A DNA stretch of 64,000 nt from NCBI RefSeq assembly GCF_016097415.1, contig NZ_JAEHGE010000001.1:1704015-1768014 (forward strand), in the 5' to 3' direction. Within the stretch, counting starts at the first letter, position 1; each line of letters opens with the position of its first letter. The stretch comes from a sulfur-oxidizing endosymbiont of Gigantopelta aegis. GTDB lineage: Bacteria > Pseudomonadota > Gammaproteobacteria > GRL18. The position numbers were made by a program, and so were the translations under genes. The notes under the pieces are model-generated. The model did no database searches, was not told the DNA's origin, and worked only from the letters and a program-made list of their open reading frames with translations. Shown here piece after piece: positions 25,684 to 63,511 of this stretch.

Positions 25684-26004
25684 ATGAATGATCAAACAAA
25701 AAAACCGAATAAAAGCTATACATCAGAATTTAAAGAATCAGCTGTCAAATTAGCTAATGAGACGGATCAATCCGTTTCTCAGACTGCCAGGGAGCTAGGT
25801 GTTAATGTAAATACTCTACATACCTGGATCAGTAAATATTCCAAACCGGTGAAGACGGTAGCCAATAGAAGTGATGAACACATTTATGATGAAGTAAAAC
25901 GTCTGAAAAAAGAATTGGCAAAAGTGATTCAGGAGCGTGATTTATTAAAAAGGCCACAGCGTACTTTGCAAGGGAAACTTTGTGAAGTACGCATGGATAA
26001 CTGA
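25684..26004 (+). pseudogene. IS3-family transposase OrfA, frameshifted near its end
   Basis: The 106-residue frame starts with a helix-turn-helix region (YTSEFKESAVKLANETDQSV, LGVNVNTLHTWISKY) and a leucine-zipper-like part (YDEVKRLKKELAKVIQERDL) typical of OrfA. After ERDLLK the frame becomes atypical; restoring one A in the five-A run at 25947-25951 gives KKATAYFARETL and a stop, the usual OrfA end. OrfB begins at that point in the -1 frame, as normal for the family. Confidence 0.85.
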
Positions 26005-26844
26005 TCAGGCTAAAGATTACCCGGTAACGATTCTGTGCCGTTTTATGGATGTTTCCCGTAGTTGCTATTATGATTGGGTTAGCTCTCCTAAAACGGATAG
26101 AGAGAAAGAAAATGAAGCGCTTACTGAGCAGCTAAAAAACTGTTTGAAGACAGTCGCAAGACTTATGGAACCCGTCGTCTTAAAAGAAAACTGGCTGAAA
26201 AAGGCGTTCATATAAGCCGCCGGAGAATTGGTCGATTAATGAAAAAAGCCGGTTTGTTTTGTAAAACGAAGAGACGCTTTAAAGCGACGACTAATTCCAA
26301 GCATAATAAGCGTATATCTCCAAATTTACTGGAAAGAGAGTTTACTGTCTCTCAACCTGATCGCTACTATGTGGGTGATATTACCTATATTGCCACCAAG
26401 GAAGGCTGGTTATATTTAGCGGTTGTCATTGACTTATTCTCTAGGCAAATTGTTGGCTGGTCGATGGATGAGCGAATGAAAGCCAAGCTAGTCAATGATG
26501 CTTTACTGATGGCCATATGGAAGCGTAAACCAATGGATGGATTGCTTTGGCATACTGACCGAGGTAGCCAATATGCCTCTGATAGTCATAGAAAAATATT
26601 GTCGGATCATAACATAATTCAGTCTATGAGCCGCAAAGGAAATTGCTGGGACAATGCTGTATCAGAGAGCTTCTTTCATAGTTTGAAAACTGAATTGACG
26701 CACCATTGTCGATTCAAAACCAGAGTAGAAGCAAAGCAGGCAATATTTGAATATATTGAGGTATTTTATAATCGGGAGCGACTTCATTCGGCTAATGATT
26801 ATTTGTCACCAGTCGATTATGAAATACAGCAGGAAATAGCTTAA
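25982..26844 (+). pseudogene. IS3-family transposase OrfB (DDE integrase), frameshifted
   Basis: OrfB is split into 25982-26215 and 26239-26844. Restoring one A in the run of six at 26134-26139 joins EQLKK to [18 protein letters not shown] and gives a full reading frame. The second part holds the catalytic core: YYVGDITYI with the first Asp, [14 protein letters not shown] with the second, and [20 protein letters not shown] with the Glu. Apart from the frameshift the core residues are intact, so the inactivation is recent or the shift is tolerated. Confidence 0.87.
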
Positions 26845-28265: not shown

Positions 28266-28422
28266 AAGATTTGTCCCTAAAATTTTTCCTGTTGTTACAG
28301 TCAAAGCTACTGTTAAAATGTATTCCATGTAATTTGTATGTGATTATATCATATTAATAATAGTTATATTTGAAGTTTTTTTCTGTGAATAAATAAGTAT
28401 ATAGGGAAGACTTTATCTTTTA

Positions 28423-28436
28423 TTGATGTGCGTCAA
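28423..28436. promoter_or_regulatory. FNR/ANR-like binding site
   Basis: TTGATGTGCGTCAA differs from the FNR-family consensus TTGAT-N4-ATCAA by one base. It lies 67-80 bp upstream of the small TPR-like gene at 28503, in position for anaerobic or nitric-oxide control of the sulfur cluster, and also between the divergent binding-protein gene and that cluster. Confidence 0.5.
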
Positions 28437-28502
28437 GACCAAAAGCATAGAAAGGGCGTTAATATGTGAAATAAAATAATACTAAATAATAGGAGAGTGT
28501 TT

Positions 28503-28787
28503 ATGATTTCTAAGAAAATTAATTTAATAAAATTCAATTCAATCATTATTGCCGCGATACTAAGTGCCTCGTTTTATACCTCAACCGTGCAAGCAAGAGA
28601 GTTTAAAGTCAATTGTAGCTCGGTGGATGATTGTATGATGAAGGGCGATAAATTAACCAAGAAAAGAAAGTTGTCCTTGGCTTTAGAAGCCTATCGTAAT
28701 GCTATTAAACAAGATATTAGCAATAAAGATGCATGGCGTAAGTTTGAAAAAGTCGTTGTGCGTATTTCAGAAGAGGGTGGTTGTTAA
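28503..28787 (+). CDS. Small exported protein with a TPR-like motif
   Basis: A 94-residue precursor with a signal peptide (IIIAAILSASFYTSTVQA) and a mature part of about 60 residues. It has two cysteines at VNCSSVDDCMMKGD and one at the C-terminus (GGC). KLSLALEAYRNAIKQDISNKDAWRKFEKV resembles a single TPR helix pair. The start is ATG with AGGAGA about seven bases upstream. It precedes the sulfur-transporter gene by 100 bp, probably in the same transcript. No function is assigned. Confidence 0.7.
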   Translation: MISKKINLIKFNSIIIAAILSASFYTSTVQAREFKVNCSSVDDCMMKGDKLTKKRKLSLALEAYRNAIKQDISNKDAWRKFEKVVVRISEEGGC

Positions 28788-28887
28788 GATCGACCACAAT
28801 CTAATTGTTAACATCTTAAAGTAATAGAATAAAACAGGTAAAACAGCTAATAAAATACTGTCAATAATATAAAGTAAGGATCATTTC

Positions 28888-30294
28888 ATGTTAAGTCTGC
28901 GTAAACAATGGCCATTTTGGATCAGCGGTGTTTTTGTTGGTGTCGCTGAAATCATGAATTATGTGGTGCTAGAGAAACCCATTGGCTTAACGACAGGCTT
29001 GGTGGAAATGACCGCCGCATTTGAGCAGACAGTCGCCCCAGGCATTGACTGGTGGTCTCGTGCTTATGATCCCAATGTTCACTGGATTATTATTGGGGTT
29101 GTGTTGGGTGCTTGGTTAGTCGCACGCGCCGAGGGTGAATCACGCGGCTGGGTGAAATATCCTACCAAAGAACTCATTTTGGCATTTGTTGGCGGTTTTG
29201 TTTTTAGCTTTGGTACTCGTCTGGCTCATGGCTGTACCACTCATCATTTTCTCGGTGGCTTGCCTTCTATGTCCACTGCTTCATTATTATATTTAACCAC
29301 TATCCTCCCTGCGGGATTTTTGACTTTTTATCTCATGAGTGTGATGAAAATTGGCCATGTCTTTAAAGGGCAGGAAAATCGTTCAACCTCAGAACTGGGC
29401 GCCAAGCAGGGTGGTAAAATGGCACTTGATGGCCTTGCCTGTGAAGCCAGTCGAGACTATAACCCAAACCGAGACTGGCTAAGAATAACCATTCTGGTCT
29501 TTATGTTTGCATTTTTTGGTAATGCTATCGTGGGTTCCTTTGTCTATGGTACCGAAGATGGACTCTTTGGTTGGAACTATGCCATAAGCTCTATTGGTTG
29601 GGCGATGATGGTTTGGTTTTTATTGATTGGTCTGGTTGCCGGTGTCGGTATGGCCAAAACCGGTTTCGGAACAGAGTGTGCCTTTATGACCCCTGAAATC
29701 TCCATGGGGCTTGAGCACAAAGAAAATTTCTTTGAGAAGAAATGGCGCATTCCCGGCTCAACCCGTTTTATGTTTCGCTCTATGTCACCTTTCACGGCAA
29801 TTTTTATTGAGATCCTATTATTATGGGGGGCAATTATGATTGGTTGGCAGTTCTATGATATTAAACTGCCTTTGGGTATGAACCCTACTTGGGTTCTATT
29901 ATTAGGTGCGGCTTTTCAGGGCTTTGGTTCAGTGGCGATGATTGGTTGTGAGATCCGTACTTATATGCGCTTAGGTCTTGGCTATATGACCGCTGTAGCT
30001 GCATTTCCTGGTTTCTTGTTAGGTTACTTACCTTATACTTTATATCAAGACTTTTGGGAAGATCTTGCGCGTGATACCACTATTACTAAAGTAAAACATG
30101 TGCCTGATATATTTAGTCATGATCCTACTATACAAGCCTTTGTTGGTTTGGCTTATGGAATTTTAGTCGCAGGATTGTTGTATTGGAGTATTAGGCGCGG
30201 TATGCGTTTAACGGGCTATAACTTTAAAGATTTAATGTCTAATAATAATGATGATTTGGCCATCAAATATTTTTCACGCTTTGAGAAAAAATAA
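28888..30294 (+). CDS. YeeE/YedE-family sulfur-compound transporter, two-repeat form
   Basis: The 468-residue membrane protein has a duplicated DUF395/YeeE-YedE architecture. The conserved cysteine motifs are FGTRLAHGCTTHHFLGG in the first half, and FGTECAFMTPE and MIGCEIRTYMRLGLGY in the second. Family members take up thiosulfate or related sulfur species through cysteine relays. AAGGA precedes the ATG by eight bases. Downstream come a cupin thiol-dioxygenase-like gene and a rhodanese gene, supporting a sulfur-handling cluster. The exact substrate is not determined by sequence. Confidence 0.88.
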   Translation: MLSLRKQWPFWISGVFVGVAEIMNYVVLEKPIGLTTGLVEMTAAFEQTVAPGIDWWSRAYDPNVHWIIIGVVLGAWLVARAEGESRGWVKYPTKELILAFVGGFVFSFGTRLAHGCTTHHFLGGLPSMSTASLLYLTTILPAGFLTFYLMSVMKIGHVFKGQENRSTSELGAKQGGKMALDGLACEASRDYNPNRDWLRITILVFMFAFFGNAIVGSFVYGTEDGLFGWNYAISSIGWAMMVWFLLIGLVAGVGMAKTGFGTECAFMTPEISMGLEHKENFFEKKWRIPGSTRFMFRSMSPFTAIFIEILLLWGAIMIGWQFYDIKLPLGMNPTWVLLLGAAFQGFGSVAMIGCEIRTYMRLGLGYMTAVAAFPGFLLGYLPYTLYQDFWEDLARDTTITKVKHVPDIFSHDPTIQAFVGLAYGILVAGLLYWSIRRGMRLTGYNFKDLMSNNNDDLAIKYFSRFEKK

Positions 30295-30310
30295 AATAGG
30301 AGTGCTTGTT

Positions 30311-31021
30311 ATGCTAAATCGGAGACAAATATTACTGGGTGCAGTCAGTAGTTTATTGTTTCCACCTTGGGCAATGGCTAATTCAGAATCAATTGTGAAC
30401 TCTAATAGTAAAACATTGGACTGGATAGGTTTTAAACAACAAATGGAATTATTATCAAGGTTTGAAGACAGTCATTCTATAGCACAAAATGAATTGTCAA
30501 AACAAGGTTTAGACTTGTTATCACAGCTTGATATTAATTCCAGCTCATTTAAAAATGCGGTGGAGCAGTCTTACGAAAGTGGTAATCGTTATTGGTTGTG
30601 GCAACGCTTAATGAAACGCGGCAATATTAATGGCGGCATTCTTAATATTGACCAATCATCGATGGTGCAATTACATGATCATCCCGGTGCAACGGGTATG
30701 GTTCGGATTATCAGTGGCGCAGCTGAAGTGTGGTTGTTCGATGAAAATAAAAAGTATCTTGATGAGAACAATAATGAAGTTGAACTCATGCGAGTTTCAC
30801 GCAAGATTTTAACAGAGGGTGATACGGCAGTATTAAGCCCAAACAAGGGCAATATTCATGCTCTGCGTTCAATTTCAAAAGAATGCCGAATGTTGGACTT
30901 TTTTATACCACCGTATCAGAGGAGTCAGCGGAGTTGGTTTGAACCGTTGGCAGATAACTGGTTTGACCAGAAAAATATTCGCTGTCGAAAAATTTCACAG
31001 AATGAATATACTCTGGCCTGA
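30311..31021 (+). CDS. Exported cupin related to PCO/ADO thiol dioxygenases
   Basis: The 236-residue protein begins MLNRRQILLGAVSSLLFPPW, a twin-arginine-like signal ending at AMANSE. The body shows a PCO_ADO-type cupin: SSMVQLHDHPGATGMVRI contains the H-x-H metal ligands, and GAAEVWLFDE follows as in cysteamine and cysteine dioxygenases of that family. NKGNIHALRSIS could supply the third His. The enzymes add oxygen to a thiol to give a sulfinate. ATG at 30311 is placed ten bases after AGGAG. Known family members are cytoplasmic, so an exported one is unusual; the substrate could be a periplasmic thiol or persulfide. Confidence 0.72.
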   Translation: MLNRRQILLGAVSSLLFPPWAMANSESIVNSNSKTLDWIGFKQQMELLSRFEDSHSIAQNELSKQGLDLLSQLDINSSSFKNAVEQSYESGNRYWLWQRLMKRGNINGGILNIDQSSMVQLHDHPGATGMVRIISGAAEVWLFDENKKYLDENNNEVELMRVSRKILTEGDTAVLSPNKGNIHALRSISKECRMLDFFIPPYQRSQRSWFEPLADNWFDQKNIRCRKISQNEYTLA

Positions 31022-31056
31022 TTATTAAGTTTTATTTTGTTAATCAATGGAGAACA

Positions 31057-31677
31057 ATGATGAAAACGAATAGGATCTATATGCAAACAAAACAGCTTCT
31101 TGCCATGTTGATGAGTATCGTGCTATTGATGTCATTTTCAGGTGCTATCATGGCCGGTGACTTTGCTAACTTGAGTAAGAAAAAGCAAACGACCTTAGGG
31201 CTTTATATGACTTCATCGCAGGCTTATGACTATACGATGAAAAATATGGACAAGACCTTGTTTCTTGATGTGCGTACGCCTTCAGAGCTGAATTATCTCG
31301 GGGTAGCCAGTGTGATGGATGCCAATGTACCGACTGATTTTATGGACTCCAGTGCATGGGATAGCAAGAAACGTCGTTATAGACGTCAGCATAATGATAG
31401 TTTTGTGGCTGATGTTGATGCCCGTTTAAAAGCCAAAGGACTGAACAAAGATGATACGGTTATTCTTATGTGTCGTTCAGGTAAGCGCAGTGCTAAAGCC
31501 GTTAATGTATTGGCAAAGGCAGGTTATACCAAGGTGTATACTGTGGTTGATGGTTATGAGGGTGATAAGGTTAAGAAAGGTGAAAATAAGGGTAGGCGGA
31601 TGAAGAATGGCTGGAAGAATTCTGGCTTGCCATGGACTTACTCAATGGATAAGGATTTTATGTATATCACAAAGTAA
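31057..31677 (+). CDS. Exported rhodanese-domain protein
   Basis: A 206-residue precursor with a signal peptide (AMLMSIVLLMSFSGAIMAGD) and one rhodanese domain. LFLDVRTPSELNYLG opens the domain and VILMCRSGKRSAKAVNVLA holds the catalytic cysteine loop CRSGKRS. Rhodaneses carry persulfide sulfur between donors and acceptors. It is 36 bp after the cupin gene, with which it probably forms an operon that includes the YeeE-type transporter. The tail KNGWKNSGLPWTYSMDKDFM is family-typical for periplasmic forms. Confidence 0.88.
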   Translation: MMKTNRIYMQTKQLLAMLMSIVLLMSFSGAIMAGDFANLSKKKQTTLGLYMTSSQAYDYTMKNMDKTLFLDVRTPSELNYLGVASVMDANVPTDFMDSSAWDSKKRRYRRQHNDSFVADVDARLKAKGLNKDDTVILMCRSGKRSAKAVNVLAKAGYTKVYTVVDGYEGDKVKKGENKGRRMKNGWKNSGLPWTYSMDKDFMYITK

Positions 31678-31700
31678 GGCTTTAAGTTAAAGCACAAAAG

Positions 31701-31780
31701 TGGGGTGGACAAGGCTTTATCTGCCCACGCTGACTCATTGACACCTTCAGCGTGGGCAGATAAAGCCGTGCCCACCCTAC
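31701..31780. repeat. Palindromic repeat family B, copy 1
   Basis: GGGTGG-AC-AAGGCTTTATCTGCCCACGCTGA and the reverse arm CAGCGTGGGCAGATAAAG-CC-GTGCCCACCC frame a short centre. It lies between the convergent rhodanese and multicopper-oxidase genes and may end both transcripts. Related copies are at 36268, 36898 and 52173. Confidence 0.8.
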
Positions 31781-31792
31781 AGATGCAAAATC

Positions 31793-32809
31793 CTAATTCA
31801 CATTGATGCGGGTTTTTGCAGTACCCAAAACATCACCTGTCACCCAATGTAAATATTCCACAGTAACTTCATAAGTACCGCTTGATGTAGGCTCAAAGAT
31901 ACAGTCATAGCGCTCTGCTGAACAGGATTCAAGTTCAGTGACTTGGATCGGTCTAGGTAATGCGCGACCATCAGACATGTGTACCGTCGCAGTTAAACCG
32001 CCAAAGTTAATACGCTGAGGAAGATAACCGGCACAAATATAGCGAACCAATAAGGTTTCACCCAGATTCATGTTCACAGCAACGGCTGGATCAGTCAGGG
32101 CAGAACGTGCACCATCAACACCTGTGATAATAAAATAATCAGGGTTCAAATCATTTAAACCCACATCACCACCACAAGTACCTGCAGCCCAGTCTAAATT
32201 ATGCCAGGACGAATCAAATTCATCACAGGCCCAAATGGCTTCCACGTCATAGCTAGGACCACCAGAAAACAATGTACCTTGACCCTCAGGTGGATCAATA
32301 ATAAGCGCACCATACATACCCATTTCAGCATGTAATACCGTATTGGTATGACAATGATAAAAATAGGTGCCAGCATGTGAGGCTTTCCATTGGTAGGTAT
32401 AATTGCCACTGACATCAAAGGAATAATGACCCACACCATCATTTTCTGTGCTGGGTTCAATACCATGATGGTGAATAGTGTGTTTCCACATATTGCCCAT
32501 GACGTTGAGATTGACATGCACGACTTGACCTTGAGTGACGCGAATTGCCGGGGAGGGGAATTGCCCCCCCATGCCACCCATGCCTCCGCCACCATCAGTA
32601 AAGCCCCAGACAGTGACACTTCTGCCATCATCCATACGCATACTGCCATTCATATAGATGCCACGGTTAAAACTAATATCCGGCGTGACTTCTCCGATAG
32701 TTGCAGGGGCGCCAGGGTATATGTAGCAAGCACCACCCATTCCTCCGCCACCGCCAGTGTTTCCACTTGTTGTTGTGCTACCACCACCACTTCTGCTACT
32801 TCTACGCAT
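31793..32809 (-). CDS. Half-size multicopper oxidase with a Gly-rich N-terminus
   Basis: The 338-residue product begins with a Gly/Ser-rich stretch (SSRSGGGSTTTSGNTGGGGG) and no evident signal peptide. Two cupredoxin-like domains follow. Copper-binding motifs HTIHHHGIEPS (H-x2-H-x-H) and GTYFYHCHTNTVLHAEMGM (H-C-H with a distal His and Met) match the type 1 and type 2/3 ligands of laccase-like enzymes. It is 13 bp downstream of a second copper-oxidase-like gene on the same strand. Alone it lacks the motifs of a third domain, so the two products may form one enzyme. Export could be by partnership with the Tat substrate upstream. Confidence 0.75.
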   Translation of the reverse strand: MRRSSRSGGGSTTTSGNTGGGGGMGGACYIYPGAPATIGEVTPDISFNRGIYMNGSMRMDDGRSVTVWGFTDGGGGMGGMGGQFPSPAIRVTQGQVVHVNLNVMGNMWKHTIHHHGIEPSTENDGVGHYSFDVSGNYTYQWKASHAGTYFYHCHTNTVLHAEMGMYGALIIDPPEGQGTLFSGGPSYDVEAIWACDEFDSSWHNLDWAAGTCGGDVGLNDLNPDYFIITGVDGARSALTDPAVAVNMNLGETLLVRYICAGYLPQRINFGGLTATVHMSDGRALPRPIQVTELESCSAERYDCIFEPTSSGTYEVTVEYLHWVTGDVLGTAKTRINVN

Positions 32810-32822
32810 AATATTATCCCTC

Positions 32823-33833
32823 TTATTCGAATGAAATCGTTGTTGCTAAACCAAATTGATACGAACCACCACCTGCTGTTTGAGTCATTTCATCATGGCT
32901 ATGCATGGGGAAATGCCCCTTTGTTACCGGTGGCCAGGCATCAGGTGGTGTTTCAAAGGGATAGATAACATCGAGACTGCCGATATTGTTGGGTAAATAA
33001 AGTGTGTCTTTTAGCCAGACGTCATCGCGAATAGTCCCATTGCGGGTTAACCATTCAACATGGTTGGCATGAAAGTGCATCGAGTGTGAACATAGGCCAG
33101 CATTTTGTATGCGCACCAAGGTACGATCACCAATTGAACCTACCAGACGTGTATCAGGCGCATAGCCTGAGTCTATATCGGGGTTTTTATAATCAGGATG
33201 ACCCGGCACGCGCATGCTTTGACCATTTAAAGTAAAATAATTTGGCTTAAAGGCACTTGTGGGCGTGTTACCATTGCTAATGGCATTGTGCCAGATTGAG
33301 TCAATATCATTGGTAATCCAAGAATATTGTTGCACAAAGGTAGGACTGCCAGCATAAACCTCATTGTCGCTGCCAGAAGGCATTACGGCTAAGCAACCAT
33401 GTAAACCGACAAGACGATTATAGGGTGCATTGAGCGCATCATAATACATTTGTGTGCCGACATTCATGGCCACAAATTCAAAGTTTACTGTGGTACCTGC
33501 AGCAATCACACCGCTGTCAATAACGCCATCAATCACAAAACTGTGATCGGTGCTAAGCAGGTTGACAATAGTAATGGCAACCGTATCGCCTTCTTGTACG
33601 ATCAGTTGTGCACCTGGTACATTGAGGCTGGATGAGTTTTCACTATAGCCTCGAAAATAGACATCAACGCCATCCGGTTGAGTGATTGTCCCCTCTGTAA
33701 TATAAAATGTTTTAGCAATTGTTGCTGCATGTGCTCTAGCGGTCCAGCTTAATAATCCTGTACTACTAAACATCACTCCTGCAAGTCCAGCTCCTCCAGA
33801 CTTAATAAAGTTTCTTCTATTCAAAATAAACAT
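32823..33833 (-). CDS. Tat-exported half-size multicopper oxidase-like protein
   Basis: The 336-residue precursor starts with a twin-arginine signal (NRRNFIKSGGAGLAG to ARAHAATI). Two cupredoxin-like domains follow. Histidines of the N-terminal domain are mostly lost (TDHSFVIDG, GTQMYYDALNAP), but HSMHFHANHVEWL and HFPMHSHDEMTQTAGG remain, the latter without the type 1 cysteine. Together with the next gene it could contribute to a hetero-oligomeric copper oxidase. A 12-bp hairpin lies in its probable leader and an FNR-like site further upstream. Confidence 0.78.
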   Translation of the reverse strand: MFILNRRNFIKSGGAGLAGVMFSSTGLLSWTARAHAATIAKTFYITEGTITQPDGVDVYFRGYSENSSSLNVPGAQLIVQEGDTVAITIVNLLSTDHSFVIDGVIDSGVIAAGTTVNFEFVAMNVGTQMYYDALNAPYNRLVGLHGCLAVMPSGSDNEVYAGSPTFVQQYSWITNDIDSIWHNAISNGNTPTSAFKPNYFTLNGQSMRVPGHPDYKNPDIDSGYAPDTRLVGSIGDRTLVRIQNAGLCSHSMHFHANHVEWLTRNGTIRDDVWLKDTLYLPNNIGSLDVIYPFETPPDAWPPVTKGHFPMHSHDEMTQTAGGGSYQFGLATTISFE

Positions 33834-33866
33834 CCTCCCGTTTGTGTTTATATGGAATTTAAGAAT

Positions 33867-33907
33867 ACGGTTATTACTTGTTGTTTTTTTTTGTCAGTAA
33901 TAACCGT
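33867..33907 (-). promoter_or_regulatory. Perfect 12-bp stem-loop in the leader of the copper oxidase gene
   Basis: ACGGTTATTACT and AGTAATAACCGT flank a 17-base loop that is mostly T on the plus strand (A-rich in the minus-strand RNA). It ends 34 bp before the copper oxidase start. It could stabilise the leader, act as an operator, or attenuate transcription. Confidence 0.6.
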
Positions 33908-33992
33908 CCTTTTGTTCTGTTTTATAAAATTGAAATTGCTTGATTGTTTGTAAGCAAAGTAAATGCTTATAAAACATGCATCTGAATATACA

Positions 33993-34006
33993 ATGATTTG
34001 CATCAA
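33993..34006. promoter_or_regulatory. FNR/ANR-like binding site
   Basis: ATGATTTGCATCAA matches the FNR-family half-sites in nine of ten positions (TGAT and ATCAA). It lies 160 bp from the copper-oxidase start and about 340 bp from the secreted-protein start. A second site of the same kind is at 28423. Confidence 0.45.
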
Positions 34007-34330
34007 TTATGTTGAAATAAAAAAAGATCAAGACTTTTGTATAGATAAAAAATAAATAAATTATACTTAAGTCTAAAGGGTCTATATTGTATGACTAAAA
34101 ATACTAGGGGAAACCCTGATGTTGCTCTCATTAAGTCTAGGAATGACCCCTGAAAACTTGGTTTTTTACGAAAAAAAATACTTGTTTAGACAGGTGGTTT
34201 ACTATTTCAATGAATATATAATGCAGACAGTAAGAATTGAGCACGGATATATAAATTTTTACTGATAAATTTTTAATGTAAATGGACCTGACTGAAGTGA
34301 GTAATACTTCAGTCTTAAGAATTATAATAA

Positions 34331-36247
<1,917 letters not shown>

Positions 36248-36897: not shown

Positions 36898-36988
36898 GTA
36901 GGGTGGGCATGGCTTTATCTGCCCACGCTGACTCAAGCGCTTATTATGTACACTTTCAGCGTGGGCACAAAAAGCGTGCCCACCCTAC
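36898..36988. repeat. Palindromic repeat family B, copy 3, with outer inverted repeats
   Basis: Core arms GTAGGGTGGGCATGGCTTTA and the reverse GCGTGCCCACCCTAC surround TGCCCACGCTGA and CAGCGTGGGCA. Outside the core, TTAGTGCCCATCCGT at about 36869 faces ACGGATGGACACTAG at about 37019, giving a larger MITE-like unit of about 165 bp. The right outer end forms the stop codon (TAG) of the next minus-strand gene. Copy 4 at 52173 is its reverse complement and does the same. Confidence 0.8.
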
Positions 36989-52172: not shown

Positions 52173-52263
52173 GTAGGGTGGGCACGCTTTTTGTGCCCAC
52201 GCTGAAAGTGTACATAATAAGCGCTTGAGTCAGCGTGGGCAGATAAAGCCATGCCCACCCTAC
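52173..52263. repeat. Palindromic repeat family B, copy 4
   Basis: Nearly the reverse complement of copy 3 at 36898: GTAGGGTGGGCACGCTTTTT at the left and GCCATGCCCACCCTAC at the right, with AAGTGTACATAATAAGCGC in the middle. On its right the flank GGATGGGCACTAA again supplies the stop codon (TAG on the minus strand) of the neighbouring gene. Confidence 0.85.
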
Positions 52264-62242: not shown

Positions 62243-63511
62243 TTATTTTAGACGATTGATACCCAATGCTTTGAGTAGGTATTTTTCGTAAATGGGCTCG
62301 CTAGAACCTGATTTCATTTTACGTATAAAATACTTTTCAAAACCAATCTTCGCTAAATGCACCCATTTACCTTTTTTAAACCAGGCAAGATTACGTGGTG
62401 GAATTTGTGGAATCGCAACAAATGCTGCGCCCGTATTACCCATATCAGCCAGACAAATCGCATTCCAGGTTGCTTCGTGACTTGGTTCAATATCAGTCAG
62501 TTCATCAGCAATATTATGTACAATGGCAGTAACCATAGACTCAATCATATAGCCAGTCTTAGGTGCGCCAGTAGGTACAGGTGTTGCTTCAACAGGTGGG
62601 ATAGCAATACAGACACCGGCAGAAAAAATATTTGGATATTTAGGACTGCGCTGATGTTTGTCCACAATAACAAAGCCACGAGGATTACATAAGCCTTCAA
62701 CACCGGCAACTGCATCAACACCTTTAAAAGCAGGTAGCATCATGCCATGTTTAAAAGGCAGTTCATGTTGTTTCTTAATGCTACCATCTTCATTGAGTTC
62801 ATCAATGAACATTTTACCGGCTTCAATTTTGGTGGTTTTTGCATTACAAATCCACTTGATTGAATGCTGGCGTAATTCTGATTCGAGCATACCTTGTGAA
62901 TCACCCACACCACCTAAACCTAAATGACCGATATAGGGTTCAGAGGTTACATAGGTCATTGGAACCTGGTCACGGAGTTTACGTTTTTGCAGTTCTCTAT
63001 TAAGAATGAAAGCGTACTCATAAGCAGGTCCGAAACAACTGGCAAAAGGCATGGCACCGACAATTGCCGGGCCTGGATCAGCTGCTAGTTCTTCAAAGTT
63101 TTTAAAGGCAGTTTCTGCATGAGGCAAAGAACAGATAGATTGGCTATGCTCTGATGGACCTGAACCTTCAACCTCTTCAAAGGCTAGACGGGGGCCAGTG
63201 GCTATTACTAAATAGTCATAGCTGATTTTATCGTTATTGTTTAAAGTGAGTTCATTTTTTGCGGGATCAATTTTATCGACCCGATGAGCAACAAAGTTAA
63301 TGCCGCGCTTTTCTAAATAAGGACGAGTTTCAAAGCTGATATCTTTTCTTTCGCGCCAACCGACCGCTACCCATGGATTAGATGGTGTGAAGTCAAAGGT
63401 TTCATTTTCACTGACCATGGTAATTAAATGTTCTTTATCCAATGCATCGCGCATTTCATATGCACAAGGCATTCCCCCAGTTCCCGCACCAATAATAACA
63501 ACGTGTGCCAT
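62243..63511 (-). CDS. Sulfide:quinone oxidoreductase-like flavoprotein
   Basis: The 422-residue protein starts VVIIGAGTGGMPCAYEM, an FAD-binding fold with one Cys. YDYLVIATGPRLAFEEVEG is the second nucleotide-binding element. ASCFGPAYEYAF (Cys near 159) and SAGVCIAIPPVE hold the two cysteines that match the redox pair of sulfide:quinone oxidoreductase, and WFKKGKWVHLAKIGFEKYFIRK resembles the C-terminal membrane-binding part. It oxidises sulfide and passes electrons to quinone; a flavocytochrome c subunit would need a signal peptide and a haem partner, both absent. AGGAG lies nine bases before the ATG. Confidence 0.85.
   Translation of the reverse strand: MAHVVIIGAGTGGMPCAYEMRDALDKEHLITMVSENETFDFTPSNPWVAVGWRERKDISFETRPYLEKRGINFVAHRVDKIDPAKNELTLNNNDKISYDYLVIATGPRLAFEEVEGSGPSEHSQSICSLPHAETAFKNFEELAADPGPAIVGAMPFASCFGPAYEYAFILNRELQKRKLRDQVPMTYVTSEPYIGHLGLGGVGDSQGMLESELRQHSIKWICNAKTTKIEAGKMFIDELNEDGSIKKQHELPFKHGMMLPAFKGVDAVAGVEGLCNPRGFVIVDKHQRSPKYPNIFSAGVCIAIPPVEATPVPTGAPKTGYMIESMVTAIVHNIADELTDIEPSHEATWNAICLADMGNTGAAFVAIPQIPPRNLAWFKKGKWVHLAKIGFEKYFIRKMKSGSSEPIYEKYLLKALGINRLK

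Follow-up and report, generated by a model that had tools for sequence, protein, structure and literature searches.

In a 64,000-nt stretch of the genome of the sulfur-oxidizing endosymbiont of Gigantopelta aegis (the window, to whose positions all coordinates refer), four plus-strand genes at 28497–31677 encode, in order, a small TPR-like protein that ends in cysteine, a YeeE-family transporter, a cupin of the PCO_ADO family and a rhodanese. Our favored reading, which we hold tentatively and would not call probable, is that the four genes form one envelope sulfur-handling module with the Cys-ended protein as carrier. The features that invite this reading lie in the genes and their translations, since gene order is kept in two genomes, the N termini are of export type, the active sites are full and the transporter has its cysteines, while the chemistry that we infer from them would be as set out below. 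The locus is real, unusual and coherent, and it is thinly sampled. An earlier, sequence-only reading had described here a sulfur/redox cluster with YeeE, a PCO/ADO-type cupin with an H-x-H motif and a rhodanese running in one direction and two copper oxidases in the other; all of these genes are present, with profile matches above their cut-offs, and the sulfur/redox character of the cluster is supported. It had missed the gene for the TPR-like protein, which is the most informative addition.

PCO and ADO enzymes have been studied in plants and animals, as O2 sensors and as enzymes acting on thiols, and the window holds a bacterial relative with an export signal and a sulfur cassette. Loci in the wider bacterial PCO_ADO set have a Cys-ended, export-type protein as the next gene, which provides a named substrate candidate, and together these loci may represent an O2-dependent route of envelope sulfur oxidation distinct from Sox, sulfide:quinone reductase (SQR) and the persulfide dioxygenases. 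We found no work in the open-licence literature on the function of bacterial PCO/ADO relatives, and among open-licence full texts no paper on a YeeE-cupin-rhodanese combination, on a periplasmic or exported thiol dioxygenase, on Sel1 proteins with sulfur oxidation, or pairing a C-terminal cysteine with a thiol dioxygenase.

The extent of the unit is set by its one known relative. A scan for the cupin across the genomes of 84,980 species, based on exact matches to short peptide patterns and hence blind to diverged relatives, returned a single relative on contig WFOC01000034.1 of a gammaproteobacterial metagenome-assembled genome (here L017), and this contig carries the TPR, YeeE, cupin and rhodanese genes in window order, with identities over the matched stretches of 83% (71 residues), 90%, 58% and 70%, respectively. 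Third codon positions are 34–48% identical between the two copies (dS is undefined) while the proteins are 60–90% identical, so the gene order appears to have been long maintained. The flanks in L017 differ, with a b-type cytochrome-like gene before the cassette (under its profile cut-off) and a malic-enzyme-like gene after it (named by eye), and no copper oxidases are present on the contig. Because the order recurs there with other flanks, without copper oxidases and with diverged third positions, we take the unit to be four genes. The copper oxidases, which the sequence-only reading had counted as cluster members, are rejected as part of it: besides their absence from L017, they lie on the opposite strand, and a palindrome with 34-nt arms intervenes between them and the rhodanese gene. 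That the four genes are adjacent by chance and unrelated in function is highly improbable; the view would fit the existence of only two copies, and the lack of YeeE and the TPR protein at 20 other PCO_ADO loci and of rhodanese at 19, but L017, which keeps order and strand with different flanks and low third-position identity, speaks strongly against it, as do the intergenic gaps of 100, 16 and 35 bases (TPR–YeeE, YeeE–cupin and cupin–rhodanese) in the window.

The cupin, its active site and its export-type start

The window cupin matches PF07847 (PCO_ADO) at 61.2 bits against a cut-off of 27, and it is the sole PCO_ADO match in the host genome (E 1.7e-16). Against CDO_I (PF05995), the family of 3-mercaptopropionate dioxygenase and likewise one of 3-His cupin thiol dioxygenases, it scores 16.9 bits, below the cut-off of 23. 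Among solved structures the best phmmer match of the window cupin is plant cysteine oxidase 4 (PCO4), followed by ADO, while a profile built from 13 cupin sequences finds ADO best and then PCO4, with E about 1e-13. The three-His site (H122, H124 and H183) aligns with the metal ligands of both PCO4 and ADO, the third of these in ADO being H193 (PMC8503633; papers are cited here by PMC number). The third ligand, for which the sequence-only reading had suggested a check, is thus present as H183, and with it come an Asp and a Tyr of ADO type, D196 lying 13 residues past the third His and Y202 six further on, which is exactly the ADO spacing. In ADO, D206 is the essential catalytic residue, since activity falls by 99% in the D206A variant and by 98% in D206N, and the substrate analogue is touched by Y212 (PMC12098869). 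By eye, Leu stands in the window cupin where ADO has Phe101, and no Cys-Tyr pair can be discerned.

Across 13 aligned sequences of 22 PCO_ADO cupins, the first and second His are found in all 13, the third His in 12, the Asp in seven (with Lys in five others and Ser in one) and the Tyr in four, and all five residues are kept only in the window, L017 and L103 proteins. The cupins of L013 (4802–5572) and L099 have Gln in place of the third metal His (GNIQ and NNIQ), and judged from these residues are perhaps not iron dioxygenases.

The cupin seems to be exported through the twin-arginine translocation (Tat) system. By eye, its start, MLNRRQILLG...AMA (MLNRRQILLGAVSSLLFPPWAMA), and that of the L017 protein, MISRRQLLLT...VMA (MISRRQLLLTAASALLLPRAVMA), are both Tat-like, and the twin Arg is retained despite 60% overall identity, which bears out the Tat-like signal proposed by the sequence-only reading. 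The G387 cupin (L101 6810–7679) also has a Tat-like start, though it is barely above the PCO_ADO cut-off and has no YeeE or rhodanese within 14 kb; the remaining 18 listed PCO_ADO proteins have no clear signal by eye, with several start codons uncertain. The window protein therefore belongs to PCO_ADO by its sequence and is set apart from PCO4 and ADO by its export signal and by a bacterial operon with sulfur transfer genes.

Since the retained Asp touches the substrate amine in ADO, the strongest alternative to a carrier-based scheme is that small aminothiols are oxidized. The exported cupin would then oxidize periplasmic cysteine, cysteamine or N-terminal-Cys peptides to sulfinates, with the rhodanese and YeeE recovering the freed sulfur and the TPR protein acting as a scaffold whose Cys is otherwise used. 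D196 and Y202, counterparts of the ADO contacts to substrate amine and hydroxyl/thiol, favor such a function, and, as judged by eye, none of the unit's mature proteins has an N-terminal Cys, which makes it plausible that the substrate is free or comes from outside, but the conserved Cys tail of the TPR protein and the recurring Cys-ended neighbors described below would be left unexplained, and we consider this alternative rather unlikely. It is very unlikely that the cupin serves in oxygen or redox sensing, oxidizing a specific exported protein as a signal with the sulfur genes merely co-regulated: PCOs and ADO do oxidize proteins as O2 sensors in eukaryotic cells (PMC10966181, PMC12098869), but the unit contains no regulator, and the companions of the cupin are genes for sulfur transfer and transport.

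Cysteine-ended partners, transporter and rhodanese

The TPR-like protein comprises 94–96 residues, starting at GTG 28497 or ATG 28503, with a Sec-type start ending in VQA (by eye) and Cys at 38, 44 and 94 as numbered from the ATG. Its match to TPR_11 is 17 bits, below the cut-off of 26.8, and SoxY is not among its Pfam matches. It is the only Cys-terminated protein among 58 non-overlapping open reading frames (ORFs) of at least 80 aa in the window, and its ISEEGGC tail is identical in L017, where five of the seven codons differ and every change is synonymous.

A similar arrangement recurs at other PCO_ADO loci: at seven of 20 (5 of 12 families), the cupin gene is followed immediately, on its own strand, by the gene for a small Cys-ended Sel1 protein with an export-type start by eye (G007, G066, G153, G200, G206, G230 and G770); the last of these serves as a test of the pattern because it was obtained after the others. 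Among ORFs of 100 aa or more within the fetched stretches, the background of Cys-ended ones is 7/373, a figure that omits six Sel1 genes and retains possibly related ones (L027, L030 and L071), and with loci taken as independent the chance of such neighbors is 5e-8 for 7/20 loci and 1.7e-6 for 5/12 families. In an alignment of eight Sel1-Cys proteins, from the seven loci and L071 (picked because it is Cys-ended), identity to the L011 protein is 22–34% and the final Cys is invariant; in the L010, L103, L107 and L114 proteins it is the sole Cys outside the signal region. A Sel1-family search of 293 genomes found Sel1 proteins in 213, and among the matches listed, those reaching model position 151 or beyond were six already known and two in PCO_ADO genomes (G313 and G209), the G313 relative ending in Cys and being located away from its cupin. 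Two exported proteins that are related to each other and share a conserved CG motif (L011 5831–6397 and L104 3283–3789) stand beside PCO_ADO cupins and Sel1-Cys genes; they have no Pfam or convincing NCBIfam match, and the guess that they are DsrE-like found no support in either. We omitted a Cys-ended ORF next to the cupin of G090 (L014), which is probably spurious, and attribute to chance an ORF of L077 that looks QueG-like by eye and ends in TGC.

In G321 (L071 286–3115), the Sel1-Cys gene lies directly after a gene for a cytochrome c-rhodanese fusion (assigned by Pfam), which has as its neighbor a gene for a SoxH-related metallohydrolase that scores 163.7 bits against a cut-off of 280. A second cytochrome c-rhodanese fusion is seen by eye at L075 4679–5539 (G007). 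The G321 neighborhood would also suit a protective module, in which thiols or sulfane sulfur that poison envelope redox enzymes such as quinoproteins and cytochromes are removed, by analogy with the SoxYZ-like carrier, SoxH and rhodanese set found beside quinoprotein dehydrogenases in ped clusters, for which protection of PQQ is the hypothesis offered (PMC12997753). A YeeE relative beside a cytochrome P460 gene in L030, with L027 and L029 similar by eye, points the same way, but the four-gene unit itself contains no quinoprotein or cytochrome gene, and we regard a protective function as unlikely. In L030 (5032–7318) the P460 gene matches PF16694 at 122.4 bits, and a small exported protein ending in RPGC directly follows the YeeE relative; the neighbors of the L027 and L029 relatives are P460-like by eye, with a similar RPGC protein 1.8 kb off in L027.

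The window transporter matches PF04143 at 76.8 bits (cut-off 27), as a member of the family that includes TsuA and SoxT1A/B, and its Cys116, Cys264 and Cys354 are invariant among eight aligned sequences. Those YeeE relatives that have been studied take up thiosulfate or sulfane sulfur; SoxT1A, which belongs to this family, supplies sulfur to the cytoplasm, and TsuA requires Cys91 and Cys293 (PMC11582611). In the window protein, C116 aligns to TsuA Cys293 and C354 to Cys91, the latter through a weak 8.7-bit stretch. It differs from TsuA in other respects: at 468 aa it scores 35.5 against the TsuA NCBIfam equivalog, far from the cut-off of 400, and is therefore not assigned to it, and no YeeD/TsuB-like gene or regulator is found among the four cassette genes. 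Its half-repeats also seem swapped, as the N-terminal half matches TsuA 245–312 at 24.2 bits (7.8 for the other TsuA half) and the C-terminal half of the YeeE profile matches TsuA 64–111 at the same weak score, the C-terminal half alone giving no TsuA match. The rhodanese matches PF00581 at 39.2 bits against a cut-off of 22.2, and its sole Cys is the active-site C139, in the motif CRSGKRS. Its N terminus is Sec-type by eye, ending in MA, in agreement with the exported rhodanese of the sequence-only reading.

Proposed chemistry and the points that weigh on it

In the carrier scheme, the rhodanese would act outside the cytoplasm to place sulfane sulfur, drawn from thiosulfate, polysulfide or thiols, onto an acceptor thiol. 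The likeliest acceptor is the TPR protein's C-terminal Cys, which would work as a carrier arm in the manner of SoxY without being SoxY. The Fe(II) cupin would then add O2 to the terminal thiol or persulfide to yield a sulfinate or an S-sulfinate that would release sulfite or thiosulfate, and YeeE would import the remaining sulfane sulfur or thiosulfate. A route in which the cupin would oxidize rhodanese persulfide to a sulfinate or sulfite and YeeE would move the product, as the sequence-only reading proposed, is possible. We favor the carrier scheme because of the L017 cassette, the ADO-spaced residues, the unchanged Cys tail, the Sel1-Cys neighbors and the G321 locus, and because the host genome has two SoxY genes and the window a gene like that of type III SQR (SQR-III).

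The specific step in which the cupin oxidizes the C-terminal Cys of the exported carrier, as a thiol or a persulfide, and so does with O2, on an arm like that of SoxY, what SoxCD does in the Sox system, is doubtful when taken by itself. A C-terminal Cys is an alpha-substituted 3-mercaptopropionate, and its thiolate and carboxylate could therefore bind the iron, as 3-mercaptopropionate is held to do in its dioxygenase (PMC8050391); a C-terminal Cys could in this way share the chemistry of a CDO_I substrate. A cation at the Asp position could meet such a carboxylate, and Lys is found there in L010, L107, L109, L114 and L013, which include three of the seven Sel1-Cys pairs; for the other four pairs, the residue is Asp in L103 and L104 and Ser in L011, and L108 lies outside the alignment. 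If this reading of the carrier Cys is true, the pairing of PCO_ADO with Cys-ended Sel1 or TPR proteins, seen in several families, would be a general bacterial system, and the window would hold its fully exported version, linked to a rhodanese and YeeE.

With SoxYZ, which carries its Cys on a C-terminal arm, and with the ped sets, the cassette shares a small exported Cys-ended protein, a rhodanese and a YeeE-type transporter; it differs in that the TPR protein has no SoxY match and in that the oxidant would be an O2-using cupin and not SoxCD or a metallo-β-lactamase (MBL)-fold hydrolase. The persulfide dioxygenase-rhodanese fusions of ETHE1/CstB type are cytoplasmic MBL-fold enzymes that act on sulfane sulfur. 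The cassette likewise brings together an oxygenase and a rhodanese for sulfane sulfur, whereas its oxygenase is a cupin with an export signal.

Several observations weigh against the carrier scheme. ADO holds its substrate analogue, a pseudo-N-terminal residue, via amine and hydroxyl, the hydroxyl standing for the thiol (PMC12098869), and binding of this type would suit an aminothiol better than a C-terminal Cys. The AlphaFold model of the cupin, made from two sequences, has a pLDDT of 37, and because it is so poor the fold assignment rests on sequence. A Sel1-Cys neighbor is lacking at 13 of the 20 other PCO_ADO loci, the G209 Sel1 relative ends in Arg, and the seven Sel1-linked cupins have no export signal by eye, so that enzyme and Sel1 partner may be in separate compartments there. 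Moreover, hhalign gives a probability of 0.4% for homology of the TPR-like protein to the Sel1-Cys family, and its membership in that family is not supported; the two appear alike in plan, with common descent not demonstrated. SoxY is present in 15 of 21 PCO_ADO genomes (in the host as two genes) compared with 10 of 23 other genomes of the class (G024 to G048 without G041 and G046), an enrichment that is not significant (p 0.076). No third copy of the cassette was found beyond the two known, and tblastn over the fetched stretches of 3.4–14 kb around the 20 other PCO_ADO loci placed YeeE, the TPR protein and copper oxidases near none of them and rhodanese near one (L104, 2.7 kb off). The co-occurrence of cupin, YeeE and rhodanese anticipated by the sequence-only reading is thus kept in L017 and fails at nearly all other cupins, and it is on account of L017 and little else that co-occurrence can be spoken of.

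The cassette is rare in the sampled genomes. Cupin matches at E 0.001 occur in eight of 144 genomes of relatives, the host's own included, and the other seven are only 23–29% identical; at E 1e-8, the cupin profile finds only the host among 398 genomes of the phylum. Plasmids gave no match to the cupin or, by megablast, to window positions 1–25000, and a search of viral contigs gave none. In a class sample of 369 genomes with the host included, in which the three family searches are taken as covering one and the same sample, the number of genomes with a match is 20 for PCO_ADO (E 0.001), 26 for the rhodanese family (E 1e-25) and eight for the YeeE family (E 1e-40). When the host is excluded, the rhodanese family is present in four of the 19 PCO_ADO genomes, where 1.3 would be expected (P 0.032), while PCO_ADO and YeeE share one genome (expected 0.36) and rhodanese and YeeE one (expected 0.48), neither of which is significant.

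Boundaries and neighborhood of the cassette

Table 1. Features of the cassette and its downstream boundary, in window positions.
Feature	Position	Strand	Basis
Small TPR-like protein, last residue Cys	28497–28787	+	ORF and profile scan
ISEEGGC tail codons of TPR-like protein	28764–28784	+	Comparison with L017
YeeE/YedE-family transporter, 468 aa	28888–30294	+	PF04143
Predicted Tat-signalled PCO/ADO-type cupin, 236 aa	30311–31021 (ORF listing from 30248)	+	PF07847
Twin-arginine-type start of cupin, MLNRRQILLGAVSSLLFPPWAMA	30311–30379	+	By eye; twin Arg kept in L017
Cupin H122-D123-H124, metal ligands 1 and 2	30674–30682	+	Alignment
Cupin H183 (GNIH), metal ligand 3	30857–30859	+	Alignment
Cupin D196...Y202, counterpart of ADO D206...Y212	30896–30916	+	Alignment
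Single-domain rhodanese, Sec-type start	31057–31677	+	PF00581; start by eye
Palindromic dispersed repeat, boundary, not part of cassette	31700–31780	.	Repeat search
Two adjacent copper-oxidase genes (31793–32809, 32823–33833), neighbors outside the unit	31793–33833	-	Cu-oxidase_3

A scan of 28300–34400 for promoters and terminators gave no excess over shuffled sequence (13 versus 19.2 and 4 versus 4.9, respectively). The two copper oxidases match Cu-oxidase_3 at 58.7 and 25.0 bits, in the order of the table, against a cut-off of 21; the upstream one has a Tat-like start, and the second starts in a stretch rich in Gly and Ser and shows no visible signal. Upstream of the cassette, at 25684–26844 (+), lies a pair of genes that by eye encode an IS3-like transposase and may be relevant to the arrival of the cassette. 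The SQR-III-like gene is at 62243–63511 (-) and scores 113.6 bits, below the cut-off of 525. At 34343–36247 (+), a protein has two CBM_4_9 matches with a long Gly-Thr repeat between them, which accounts for the long simple-repeat open frames on both strands there. The palindrome that bounds the cassette belongs to a REP-like repeat with three copies in the window, the other two at about 36911–36976 and about 52185–52250, and one further match in L154, a fetched stretch from contig 2 of the host genome that holds a SoxY gene.

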